Source: Magnetococcales bacterium
Lineage (GTDB): Bacteria > Pseudomonadota > Magnetococcia > Magnetococcales > Magnetaquicoccaceae
Length of the DNA: 64,000 nucleotides
Direction of reading: 5' to 3'
Assembly: GCA_011089965.1 (NCBI GenBank)
Contig: JAANAU010000017.1
Coordinates: 1-64,000, forward strand
Part shown: piece after piece, positions 53,135 through 57,616 of the stretch
Numbering within the stretch: position 1 is the stretch's first letter
Layout of the letters: every line of letters begins with the position of its first letter
Made by a program: the position numbers and the translations under genes
Notes under the pieces: model-generated
What the model was told of the DNA's origin: nothing
Database searches by the model: none
Seen by the model: the letters and a program-made list of their open reading frames with translations, nothing else

Positions 53135-53186
53135 AGTTTGTCGAAATCTGAATAAACCTTTACCCTATTCAAGAGAAATATATCCC

Positions 53187-53693
53187 ATGAATACCATGCG
53201 CGCTGTTGTCCGGCAACGTCGGGAAGCTGGCTTCTCCCTTGTGGAAATGGCCATCGTTCTGGTCATCATCGGCTTGATCGTCTCGGCCATCGCCGTGGGC
53301 AAAAGCACCATGGCCAAGGGTGAAGCCACCAAAGCCTTTCAGCAGTTCATCAATCCCTATATCCAGGCGGTCCTGAGCACCTATCAGGGAACCGGCACCG
53401 TGGCCTTGAGTCCCTCCACCCAGAAAGAGTTGATGACCTCTTATAAATATGGCGACGGCACCATTGAACTGGATGGAGCCACCACCAAAGCCACGGCTTC
53501 CGGTCAACTGACCGTGGCCTTCAAGCTGTCAGGCCTTTCCGGCGATCAGGGGGTGGAGCTGGCCAATGTGTTCCGCAACGCCCTCTCCGGCACCACACTG
53601 GATGCCAATGGCAGCAGCACGGTCAATGCCAGCAACACTTCGCTCTCGGCCACCTTCCGCGTTCCGGCTGTCAATATTCAAAGCGGATCGTGA
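53187..53693 (+). CDS. Type IV pilin-like protein (major pilin candidate)
   Basis: 168 residues from ATG 53187. A basic leader (MNTMRAVVRQRREAG) is cleaved before FSLVEMAIVLVIIGLIVSAIAVGKS (Glu+5), one long hydrophobic helix. The soluble part is Thr/Ser/Ala-rich (TIELDGATTKATASGQL; LDANGSSTVNASNTSLSA) and without cysteines, unlike many type IV pilins with a C-terminal disulfide. It has its own promoter and is followed by a strong hairpin, consistent with high-level single-gene expression, so it may be the main subunit of the flanking pilus system. Confidence 0.85.
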   Translation: MNTMRAVVRQRREAGFSLVEMAIVLVIIGLIVSAIAVGKSTMAKGEATKAFQQFINPYIQAVLSTYQGTGTVALSPSTQKELMTSYKYGDGTIELDGATTKATASGQLTVAFKLSGLSGDQGVELANVFRNALSGTTLDANGSSTVNASNTSLSATFRVPAVNIQSGS

Positions 53694-53806: not shown

Positions 53807-54754
53807 ATGCGCACGCTTTGGGTTTTATGCGTTCTGTTCATAACTTTCGCAAGCCCTGCCACTGCTGCCCCGGACAAAGACAAATCCTGCAAAAAACTGC
53901 CCAAAGAGATGGCCAGCGCACTGGGCAGTGCCATCCATCAAAAAGATGAATTCGTGGTTCATTACCATGCCACCGGTCCCAATGCCATCCAGGAAAAGGC
54001 GGACCTCAATGGCAACACAATCCCGGATGCCGTGGAAGATGTGGCCACCAAATTGATCGCCATGCGCGAGATGCTCACCAGCAACGGCTTTGTTCACCCT
54101 TTCAAACAGCCCCGTTATCAGCAGGTCCGACAGATTCATGCCATCATGCTCCCGGTCAAAGGCAATGGCGTGGCGTATGAAAGTCCCCGCACCATGCCGG
54201 ATGGCACCTGCGCCCTGATCATCCATGTGGACAACGATGTCAGCTCTGAAAACATCACCCCTGCTCATGAGCTGTTTCATCTGTTTCAGTACGGCTACAC
54301 CATGTTCAAGCGGCCCTGGTATCTGGAAGGGATGGCACGCTGGTCCGAGTCGATGTTGCGGGCCACTCCGCCGAAAACCGCTCCCCTCCCCAAGAGCAAT
54401 GCGGAACTGACCGCATTTTTCGACAAAAAATATGATGCCGTTGGCGTCTGGTATGCCCTGACCACGGGCGTGGATCCGGTAGGTCAGATCAAGGTGCCGG
54501 AATCGGCAGCCAATCTGCGGTATGTGTCGGGCAAAAAAATGGTACAGGATGACAAACTGCCCGGTGTGGCTTTCATGCGCGCGGTTCTGGAAGGATTGGA
54601 CAAACTGGACGATCAGATCAGTACAGCTCAGGGATTGACTCCTTTTGGCTGGTCCGAATCCATGCAGAGGGATCAGAAACATGACCTGCCCATGTGGAAG
54701 TTGATCGAAACACTTTATCACACCCATGGACCGACCGGCAGAGCCGCACCATAA
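53807..54754 (+). CDS. Secreted zinc metalloprotease-like protein (HELFH)
   Basis: 315 residues; AAGGA eight bases before ATG 53807. Signal peptide LWVLCVLFITFASPATA. A Ca-binding-type loop DLNGNTIPDAVEDVATKL precedes the core, as in bacterial secreted proteases whose annotations mention a PD(Y/A)VE segment. The zinc motif HELFH occurs in TPAHELFHLFQYG, followed ~20 residues on by EGMARWSE, which would supply the third ligand Glu in a gluzincin. Exported, probably via Sec and possibly the T2SS encoded nearby. The substrate is unknown. It lies between a pilin and the ATP-grasp fusion gene. Confidence 0.82.
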   Translation: MRTLWVLCVLFITFASPATAAPDKDKSCKKLPKEMASALGSAIHQKDEFVVHYHATGPNAIQEKADLNGNTIPDAVEDVATKLIAMREMLTSNGFVHPFKQPRYQQVRQIHAIMLPVKGNGVAYESPRTMPDGTCALIIHVDNDVSSENITPAHELFHLFQYGYTMFKRPWYLEGMARWSESMLRATPPKTAPLPKSNAELTAFFDKKYDAVGVWYALTTGVDPVGQIKVPESAANLRYVSGKKMVQDDKLPGVAFMRAVLEGLDKLDDQISTAQGLTPFGWSESMQRDQKHDLPMWKLIETLYHTHGPTGRAAP

Positions 54755-54805: not shown

Positions 54806-57616
54806 ATGTCCCTACCTCTGCTCATCACCCAGGCCAAGGCGCAACTGTCGACCCATTTTCAAAACGCTCCACCTGGTCTGAATCCATCTCATCCGGCTTA
54901 TACGCTCTTTTTTTCACTCAGCGACAAAAAAAACCGCGCAACGGTTTGCCATGTCTCCGGTGCCGACTTTGCAAGCGCCTGGAAGGCGGGAGTCACCCAC
55001 TGCCTGCAACTGGCCAAGCGTTTGAAGCTCACGGTTCACTGGCTGCGGATCGACTGGATCACCCAGGTCGAGGCGACCACCTGGCATGGTGTTCATCAAC
55101 GTCTGGCCAAAACCAAGCGCAACTATTTCCGTTATGGTCTGGCCTTGGATCCAGGGTTCCGTTTGGCTTTTCTGGAGATGGAACTCAACGCCAATGCCAT
55201 GCTGTACGGTGGCGACGCCATGGACGAAGCCCACTTGAACACCGGCAACTTCAACCGCTATGGCATTCATCGCTTTGGCAACAACTACACGGTTGACTTC
55301 TCTCCGGACCAACCGGTTTATCTTTTGACGACTGAGGGGTATTTTTTCTCCAGGGACCAGGCCTTGAATGGCCTGCCTGGCGGCAACACGCCGCAATGGC
55401 TTCCCTTTGATCGGCTGGCGGGCGGGCGCCGTCAATTGGATCCGCTCACACCCGAGGCCGTATGGGCACTGATCGACTCCAGCGCCAATTTTCTGGCCCG
55501 GCAGGTCAAAGAGAGCGGGGAGTTCATCTATGGTCATTTTCCCTGCTTTGGTCGTTTGATCCCCACCTACAACGCCTTGCGACATGCCAGTTCGGTCTAT
55601 TCCATGCTGGAGGGGTGGGAACTCACCCGACGTGAGCCGTTGATGACAGCCATTCAACGCGCACTGCATTATCTCACCCATACCCTGATCCGTCCCTGCA
55701 CCCTGCCTGACGGAACCCGGGCTGCTTTTGTCGTGGATCTGGGTGAGCAGATCAAGCTGGGGGCCAATGCGGTAAGCATTCTGGCTTTGGTCAAGTATCA
55801 GGAGTTGACCGGTGATCTCCAGTATCTCCCCATGATGGAGCAACTTGCTTTGGGCATTGCCCACATGCAGGATCCGGTCACCGGACGGTTTGTTCATGTA
55901 TTGCATGCTGCGGATCTTTCTGTTCACAGTCAGTTTCGCATCATCTACTACGATGGCGAGGCGGCCTTTGGTCTGATGCGGCTGTATGGGCTGACGCGGG
56001 ATCCACGCTGGCTGGCTATCGTGCAGAAAGCCTTTGACTATTTTCTTCAGGTCGATCACTGGAAAGCGCACGATCACTGGCTCTCCTACTGTTCCAATGA
56101 GCTGGTGCGTCATCTGCCGGAGGAGCGTTATTTTCGTTTTGGCGTACAGAACATTGTTGGCCATCTTGACTTCATCCTGCACCGTGAGACCACGTATCCC
56201 ACCCTGTTGGAACTCTCCATGGCCTTTGAGCAGATGCTGGTGCGTTTGGAAGAGTTCCCGGATCACAAGCAGGTGTTGCAGGGATTAAGCCTCAAAAAAT
56301 TCTTCCGCGCCATGCACCATCGCGCCCACTATCTTTTGAATGGTTTTTTCTGGCCTGAAGTTGCCATGTACTTTGCCAAACCGTCCAGAGTGGTTGGCAG
56401 TTTCTTCATTCGCCATCACGTCTTTCGGGTGCGCATTGACGACATCGAGCACTATCTGTCCGGCTATGTGGCCTATTGGAAGTATCTGACCAAGGAGCGC
56501 CGTCTGGAGAGCACGCTTGACGATCAACCTGAAGTGGAGCTGTTGGAGACCGCAACCAACGTATTGTTGGGACCGGTTGCTTTGTTGCGCTACCCGGAGA
56601 AGCCCTATCCGGAGATGACTCTGTTGGCTCAGGCGTGTCTGGCCAAGGGGATGGCTGTCTGTTATCTTTCACTCAACAATTTCCGGATGCAGCAGGATGG
56701 ACTGTTGCACGGTTATCGTTATGACAGCGGCAAGTGGCACCAGGAGAGCTTTCCCATTCCGGTTTTGATCGACAACCCCAGCCCGCGCGATGACAACGAC
56801 CGGGCCATTACCAGCCAGTTGGAAAAGAGTGCCACGTTGTTGTTTCACCGTTTGGGCGGCAAAAAGAAGATCCTGCCCATTCTGGCCAGGGATCTCCGCA
56901 CCCAACAGTGGGTCATCCCCTCGCAGCCCCTCTCCATTCAGGCTTTGCGTGTTGAGCTGGCGGCCATGGGGTGTGCCATCATCAAGCCGTTTGCTGCCAA
57001 TCGGGGCCGGAACGTCTTCCTGATCACTGTTCTGTCAGAGGGGCAGTTCACTGTGGCCACCAACGAATCGACAACTTCTGTCGATGAGGCTGGATTGGAC
57101 GCTTTTATTGCCGATCAGCCTGCCGGGAGTTACATGCTTCAGCGTTATGTGGCCAGTGTGGATGCTGAAGGTTATCCGTTTGATATTCGCGTACCGGTGT
57201 TTCGTGGTCGGGCCGGGGCCTGGGCCATTCCGAAGAGTTATGTACGCAGTGGCACGGGTCGTGTCACCTCGAACCTGGCCACGGGTGGATCCACGCACGA
57301 CGTGGTTCCGTTTCTGGCGCGTCTCTATCCGGAACCGGTTGCACGCGAGATCGCCATCCAACTGGAAGCAGCCGCTCTGACTGTGGCTGAGGTGTTGCAA
57401 GCCCATTATGATTTTGTCATCGATGCCATTGGATGCGATTTTGCCGTGACCAATGGTCAACTTTATCTCTTTGAAGTCAACGACTATCCTGGGATCAAGG
57501 GATGTTTGGAGCCGGCGGTGGCTGTCCGCACCGACTATTATCGACATTGTCTCGAACAGCTCGCACTTCCGGATCAGGCGGATCAGACGGATCAGGCGGA
57601 TCTGGAGGATGATTGA
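54806..57616 (+). CDS. Three-part protein: unknown N-domain, probable alpha/alpha-barrel, YheC/D-type ATP-grasp
   Basis: 936 residues. Residues ~1-200 are unrecognised (LTVHWLRIDWITQVEATTWHGV, YFRYGLALDPGFRLAFLEMELN). Residues ~225-600 read as repeated helical hairpins (NALRHASSVYSMLEGWEL; KLGANAVSILALVKYQELTG; YYDGEAAFGLMRLYGLTRD), like a six-hairpin alpha/alpha toroid of glycosidases or cyclases. Residues ~650-930 are an ATP-grasp ligase of YheC/YheD style (IIKPFAANRGRNVFLI; FDIRVPVF; VTSNLATGGSTHDVVPF; CDFAVTNGQLYLFEVNDYPG with the metal-binding Glu/Asn). It ends in a DQADQTDQAD repeat tail. Soluble, with no signal peptide. Third positions are less C-biased than in neighbours. The function is unknown; ATP-dependent ligation is inferred. 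Confidence 0.85.
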   Translation: MSLPLLITQAKAQLSTHFQNAPPGLNPSHPAYTLFFSLSDKKNRATVCHVSGADFASAWKAGVTHCLQLAKRLKLTVHWLRIDWITQVEATTWHGVHQRLAKTKRNYFRYGLALDPGFRLAFLEMELNANAMLYGGDAMDEAHLNTGNFNRYGIHRFGNNYTVDFSPDQPVYLLTTEGYFFSRDQALNGLPGGNTPQWLPFDRLAGGRRQLDPLTPEAVWALIDSSANFLARQVKESGEFIYGHFPCFGRLIPTYNALRHASSVYSMLEGWELTRREPLMTAIQRALHYLTHTLIRPCTLPDGTRAAFVVDLGEQIKLGANAVSILALVKYQELTGDLQYLPMMEQLALGIAHMQDPVTGRFVHVLHAADLSVHSQFRIIYYDGEAAFGLMRLYGLTRDPRWLAIVQKAFDYFLQVDHWKAHDHWLSYCSNELVRHLPEERYFRFGVQNIVGHLDFILHRETTYPTLLELSMAFEQMLVRLEEFPDHKQVLQGLSLKKFFRAMHHRAHYLLNGFFWPEVAMYFAKPSRVVGSFFIRHHVFRVRIDDIEHYLSGYVAYWKYLTKERRLESTLDDQPEVELLETATNVLLGPVALLRYPEKPYPEMTLLAQACLAKGMAVCYLSLNNFRMQQDGLLHGYRYDSGKWHQESFPIPVLIDNPSPRDDNDRAITSQLEKSATLLFHRLGGKKKILPILARDLRTQQWVIPSQPLSIQALRVELAAMGCAIIKPFAANRGRNVFLITVLSEGQFTVATNESTTSVDEAGLDAFIADQPAGSYMLQRYVASVDAEGYPFDIRVPVFRGRAGAWAIPKSYVRSGTGRVTSNLATGGSTHDVVPFLARLYPEPVAREIAIQLEAAALTVAEVLQAHYDFVIDAIGCDFAVTNGQLYLFEVNDYPGIKGCLEPAVAVRTDYYRHCLEQLALPDQADQTDQADLEDD

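Follow-up and report, generated by a model that had tools for sequence, protein, structure and literature searches.

The closest described counterpart of the protein analyzed here comes from Staphylococcus aureus, in which the 538-aa GtfC lacks a CAZy assignment and is encoded directly downstream of the SD-repeat protein Pls, whose full Ser-HexNAc glycosylation requires GtfC together with the glycosyltransferase GtfD (PMC5230774). Dipeptide repeats have also been described in the Paracoccus denitrificans adhesin BapA, which carries 891 Asp-Ala repeats, is exported by a type I secretion system (T1SS), and is required for biofilm (PMC5588039), in Listeria Lmo1799 with 226 Ala-Asp repeats (PMC8687577), and in Acinetobacter BAPs (PMC4647330); none of these three reports ties the repeats to the protein module described below. 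Many bacterial surface adhesins contain long Asp-X dipeptide repeats, and chemical decoration of such repeats is reported, in the literature cited here, only for Ser of the staphylococcal SD repeats. Literature searches on YheC with ATP-grasp, or on Mur ligases with dipeptide-repeat adhesins, returned no description of the system proposed here.

The window, a 64,000-nucleotide stretch of the Magnetococcales bacterium contig JAANAU010000017.1, encodes a 936-aa fusion protein (Table 1) that probably decorates giant Asp-X adhesins prior to their export. The frame is not a chance ORF because it is kept at full length with 63-65% identity in a second species of the genus. The first-pass annotation had proposed a three-part protein consisting of an unrecognized N-terminus, a central helical toroid, and a C-terminal YheC/D ATP-grasp domain, and this architecture was borne out by Pfam (PF14398), AlphaFold2, and Foldseek. 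A Pfam scan of the 936-aa protein recognized the C-terminal ATP-grasp domain alone, neither Pfam nor NCBIfam has a model for residues 1-565, and phmmer and HMM comparisons of the whole protein and of the ATP-grasp part with solved structures gave no usable match. AlphaFold2 modeled residues 1-565 with a pLDDT above 90 over most of their length, and its confidence was low in the ATP-grasp part. Codon use, thought in the first-pass annotation to set the gene apart from its neighbors, was unexceptional, with a KL divergence of 0.060 per codon that ranked among the lower values of 12 neighbors and a GC fraction of 0.551 against 0.54-0.62.

The combination of this module with a YheC/D domain was found in four genomes, namely that of the window, another Magnetococcales species of the same genus (L011), Agrobacterium tumefaciens (plasmid locus L075, 48% identity to the window protein over 890 aa), and the unrelated genome G102 (L145), where the gene adjoins a partial Ig/cadherin-repeat adhesin. 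In the window protein the C-terminal domain matched PF14398 with an E-value of 1.3e-30 and 107 bits against a cut-off of 26.8, and the model was also matched in L011 and L145. The motifs quoted earlier were located as IIKPF at residue 725, FDIRV at 792, SNLATGG at 822, and FEVNDYPG at 889. The predicted catalytic residues K727, Q779, D793/R795, N823, D878, E890, and N892 were invariant in an alignment of the four proteins, the roles of these K, Q, D-R, N, D, and E-N positions being presumed to be those they have in ATP-grasp enzymes generally.

Table 1. Features of the 936-aa fusion gene and its neighbors, in window coordinates.
Feature	Coordinates	Strand	Remarks
Module + YheC/D ATP-grasp fusion, 936 aa	54806..57616	+	Single open frame
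Module N-terminal domain, residues 1-210	54806..55435	+	No sequence family; marginal AMMECR1-like fold
Module alpha/alpha toroid, residues 211-565	55436..56500	+	About 100 near-invariant residues
Linker and pre-ATP-grasp region, about residues 590-681	56573..56848	+	Collinear with L011, L075, and L145
YheC/D-type ATP-grasp domain, residues 682-904	56849..57517	+	PF14398, motifs, alignment
Predicted secreted HExxH metalloprotease, 315 aa, HELFHLFQYGYT	53807..54754	+	Recurrent module partner
Type IV pilin-like neighbor (N_methyl)	53169..53693	+	PF07963

Fold comparison of the central region agreed with the suggestion that it is a helical-hairpin toroid of the kind used by glycan-active enzymes, as Foldseek matched it to (alpha/alpha)6 toroids. 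The best structural neighbors were GH76 mannanases and cellobiose/glucose 2-epimerases (E-values of 6e-7 to 2e-6), and the (alpha/alpha)6 fold of the AGE enzymes was present with target-based TM scores of up to 0.65. Profile comparison by hhalign related the toroid to the GlcNAc 2-epimerase family (probability 73%, E-value 3e-5) against approximately 0-1% for unrelated controls. Membership of the AGE family was rejected, as the 936-aa protein had no Pfam match to PF07221, no AGE-type histidine motif was seen within the stretch aligned to the 2-epimerase profile, and the profile link denotes a remote toroid relation only. The protein likewise had no Pfam match to the GH76 alpha-mannanases, to which the similarity was confined to the fold, and no C5-epimerase family member was present in the searched genomes. 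The N-terminal domain was indeed unrecognized by sequence, and it was predicted as a separate domain (pLDDT 91) that forms one conserved unit with the toroid. Its best fold match was the marginal 1zq7 (E-value 2.2e-3, TM 0.35), which we take to be an archaeal AMMECR1 protein; the link to AMMECR1 goes no further than this fold hint, and the comparison with the AMMECR1 profile (hhalign E-value 0.03) was not significant and no better than the control.

A genome search with the window protein yielded 64 loci, in which the homologous span was residues 1 to approximately 565, except in L011 where it covered the full length. The N-terminal domain and toroid behave as a single conserved unit that is joined to differing transfer domains. 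The C-terminal extensions of the relatives comprised one large group and several singletons: the large group, and the commonest fusion, was a MurF-like ligase, preceded by PGA_cap in some proteins and accompanied in some by S11 or VanY peptidase domains, and the singletons included an SdgA/SdgB-like GT4, a GT2, a methyltransferase, and a possible Asp/Asn hydroxylase that scored below threshold. Approximately 25 of the relatives were standalone modules, and in the Listeria and Acinetobacter loci no neighboring ligase or glycosyltransferase was found, so that the module must act alone in some way there.

Several loci showed more elaborate arrangements. The A. tumefaciens protein (L075 7926-12908; plasmid pAt, CP048491) has 1660 aa comprising the module, YheC/D, and RimK/ATP-grasp-type domains, that is, three ATP-dependent ligase regions, and adjoins a BapA adhesin with (DA)169 and T1SS genes. 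In Lampropedia hyalina a 2391-aa protein (L017 10001-17173) joins the module to PGA_cap and two Mur regions and also contains acylphosphatase and VanY carboxypeptidase domains. Two standalone modules that are 46-51% identical to the query lie in tandem in L062 (8536-11865), and L029 contains a PGA_cap-Mur fusion plus a standalone module. One cluster of genome G028 (L008, L009, and L010) holds three remote toroid paralogues of approximately 630-670 aa each, with 27-29% identity in the toroid portion only.

Staphylococcal relatives connect the module to the described glycosylation system. A 538-aa staphylococcal protein aligned with the window module at 36% identity over 542 aa (E-value 2e-110), and the module seems to belong to the same family as staphylococcal GtfC; we infer the membership of GtfC itself (SACOL0051) from its length, position, annotation, and a 69% S. 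epidermidis paralogue. The genes of these 538-aa relatives come directly after those of repeat adhesins. On two plasmids an SdrD-B-like adhesin, the 538-aa module, and a MurF-like ligase are encoded by consecutive genes, the last two corresponding, as separate genes, to the fusion seen in Gram-negative bacteria. The module and MurF-like ligase genes lie 9 bp apart, after the repeat adhesin, in L150 (6001-9687) and L151 (3371-7039), and on S. aureus pN10CSA27 the Mur ligase is in short fragments and looks broken (L148 10104-10493) beside an intact module.

The module loci shared a recurrent surface-protein context. Neighboring families included TolC, the T1SS ABC transporter, HlyD, and BapA_N adhesins, the Listeria module adjoined an LPXTG protein, and the staphylococcal modules adjoined SdrD-B-like adhesins; the adhesins beside modules were type-I-secreted BapA/RTX or LPXTG proteins with very long Asp-X dipeptide repeats. 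Separate searches for module and repeat across 397 genomes of the phylum showed that 10 of the 12 genomes with the module, and none of the 385 lacking it, contain 40 or more overlapping repeat sites (Fisher p 2.8e-18, an optimistic value, as are the other p-values, because the genomes and loci tested are partly related). The two module-positive genomes below this threshold were draft assemblies, 11 of the module-negative genomes had 1-29 repeat sites, and a sample restricted to relatives gave the same trend. A distance of 1-9 kb separated repeat and module within one contig in G260, G401, G365, G162, G084, and G014.

The genome of the window (G000) contains D(A/G/S) repeats on three other contigs, C16, C28, and C64, where they lie exactly at the contig ends (C16:1, C28:1, and C64:1; L128-L130), which suggests that the assembly broke inside the repeats. 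RTX repeats accompany the repeat on C16, and TolC/ABC/HlyD genes come after the one on C28; a single adhesin gene may have its two ends on C28 and C64. Two observations count against the adhesin reading: the window module gene has no adjacent repeat gene, and Asp-X repeats are absent from the sequenced part of the adhesin beside the module-ATP-grasp gene of G102. The window protein nevertheless very probably belongs to a dipeptide-repeat adhesin system.

The composition of the repeats followed the chemistry of the module's partner. At loci with glycosyltransferase-type modules, fused or adjacent, Ser plus Thr made up 0.62-0.99 of the repeat X residues (n = 4 loci), compared to no more than 0.38 in 25 of 27 ligase-type loci, where the fraction was mostly near zero and the remainder Ala or Gly (p 0.002, uncorrected for relatedness of the loci). 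The exceptions were the Mur-linked L019 and L136, which have Ser-rich repeats. In genome G260 a standalone module (L134) adjoins a near-pure (Asp-Gly)88 repeat free of Ser and Thr. ATP-grasp and Mur enzymes activate carboxylates to form amide bonds. The ligase versions would act on Asp, because its carboxylate is the sole reactive side chain in (Asp-Ala)n and these enzymes activate carboxylates, and the methyltransferase and weak hydroxylase fusions fit an Asp target while proving nothing. That the window protein modifies an adhesin repeat is considered likely, and that its ATP-grasp domain forms amides on Asp side chains is given close to an even chance.

Both neighbors named in the first-pass annotation, a pilin (PF07963 N_methyl) and an HExxH metalloprotease, are real. 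The protease, predicted to be secreted and encoded immediately upstream of the fusion gene, matched no Pfam model. Its match to NF045524 (MXAN_6640; E-value 2e-13, 50.6 bits against a cut-off of 140, HExxH present) stayed below the cut-off and makes it a distant relative of that family. Its homologues were identified in 16 module loci, mostly less than 2 kb away and beside glycosyltransferase-type and ligase-type modules alike. The pilin and the GspE/GspF genes surround the module-protease pair only in the window and in L011 of the same genus, and the pilin is thought to be a neighbor outside the module system. The proposal that a ligase on a glycan-type fold modifies a surface polymer or protein was supported, and the pilus as its substrate was not, as the pilin and GspE/GspF neighbors are limited to this genus.

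The best overall explanation, held at an even chance, combines a module that grips adhesin repeats with ATP-grasp amide formation on Asp. The 936-aa protein would work in the cytoplasm and modify a giant surface adhesin post-translationally: its GtfC-like module (residues 1-565) would grip the unfolded, polyanionic Asp-X repeats of an RTX/Bap-type adhesin that has yet to be exported by type I secretion. With ATP, the YheC/D domain tethered to the module would activate a carboxylate and form an amide bond, most likely attaching an amine or amino acid to the side-chain carboxylates of Asp within the (Asp-Ala/Gly) repeats. A MurF-like ligase would take the equivalent role in related systems, and a glycosyltransferase would replace it where the repeats are Ser-rich. 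The modified adhesin would then be secreted, and the adjacent protease, which has a signal peptide, may process it at the surface or release it.

Other explanations differ mainly in the role they give to the module. It may itself be a sugar enzyme of the GtfC type with an (alpha/alpha)6 active site that glycosylates the repeats or matures their glycan; an amino acid would then be added by the ATP-grasp or Mur domain to this glycan and not to Asp. The glycan-enzyme relatives of the toroid, the GT4 and GT2 fusions, and the resemblance of the approximately 100 near-invariant residues to an active site all speak for such an enzyme, as does the dependence of full Pls glycosylation on GtfC, although in S. 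aureus COL GtfD alone gave weak glycosylation and GtfC alone gave none (PMC5230774). Moreover, the (DA)n and (DG)n repeats that accompany standalone or ligase modules lack Ser and Thr and so offer no O-glycosylation site, and the aligned stretch showed no AGE-type histidine motif; a sugar enzyme is considered unlikely, if with an appreciable probability. The pairing of a single module with many chemistries, its standalone occurrence beside adhesins without any transferase, and its many conserved basic and aromatic residues are compatible with a module that only binds or chaperones the long acidic repeats, as a scaffold that prevents their folding and keeps them in solution and competent for export, while the chemistry resides solely in the swapped C-terminal domains. 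Such a scaffold-only role is regarded as about equally unlikely, and the acidic, histidine, and tyrosine residues of the module, among them E126, D423, H424, E469, E518, D545, D546, and H549, are conserved at enzyme-like levels.

Two further alternatives dispense with the adhesin. The pilin or a pilus might be the substrate, given that pilin and GspE/F genes lie next to the fusion gene, an arrangement that a second species of the genus shares, but module loci outside the genus match no window pilin and their recurrent context is T1SS or LPXTG repeat adhesins, and this alternative is held to be very improbable. YheC/D ATP-grasp and toroid folds are both found in metabolism, which favors a soluble enzyme producing a small peptide or amino-sugar conjugate with an accidental link to adhesins. 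An accidental link would have to accommodate the co-occurrence of module and repeat (10 of 12 against 0 of 385 genomes) and their direct adjacency in many genomes, and only a very small probability is assigned to it.

If the adhesin-modifying explanation is right, a repeat-marking module with interchangeable ligases and glycosyltransferases that track repeat composition predicts a general decoration system spanning Listeria, staphylococci, Agrobacterium, and Magnetococcales, in which the ligase versions would modify Asp. Genes annotated as "hypothetical," "tagE," or "Mur ligase" would be united in one testable, biofilm-relevant system. More speculatively, and with clearly less than even confidence, the modification could be widespread and hitherto overlooked: ATP-grasp or Mur ligases on repeat-gripping GtfC-like modules would attach an amine or amino acid to Asp side chains at hundreds of positions in each ribosomally made poly-(Asp-Ala) adhesin and so create a genetically templated, cyanophycin-like branched surface polymer.

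Compared to described systems, the module resembles GtfC (SACOL0051) in its size, its lack of a CAZy family, and the dipeptide-repeat surface protein alongside. It differs in that GtfC is paired with the glycosyltransferase GtfD and serves staphylococcal S-D repeats, whereas the window module is fused to an ATP-grasp ligase in a Gram-negative host with T1SS adhesins and D-A/G-rich repeats. The SD-repeat O-glycosyltransferases SdgA/SdgB act on the same kind of repeat and are the closest match of the module-fused GT4 domains in L072 and L079, but the window protein has no glycosyltransferase domain. Its C-terminal domain scores far over the cut-off of the YheC/D family and retains the predicted catalytic residues; the known members are spore-associated Bacillus proteins, whereas the window domain is tethered to an adhesin-repeat module. 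BapA of P. denitrificans represents the likely substrate type for proteins like that of the window, and a modifying enzyme was not reported for it (PMC5588039). Finally, cyanophycin synthetase, which pairs ATP-grasp with a Mur-like ligase, offers an analogy of function in its ATP-dependent formation of amides on poly-Asp side chains (PMC9262961); the two are not homologous overall, and in the window system the acceptor would be an (Asp-Ala)n adhesin repeat produced on the ribosome.
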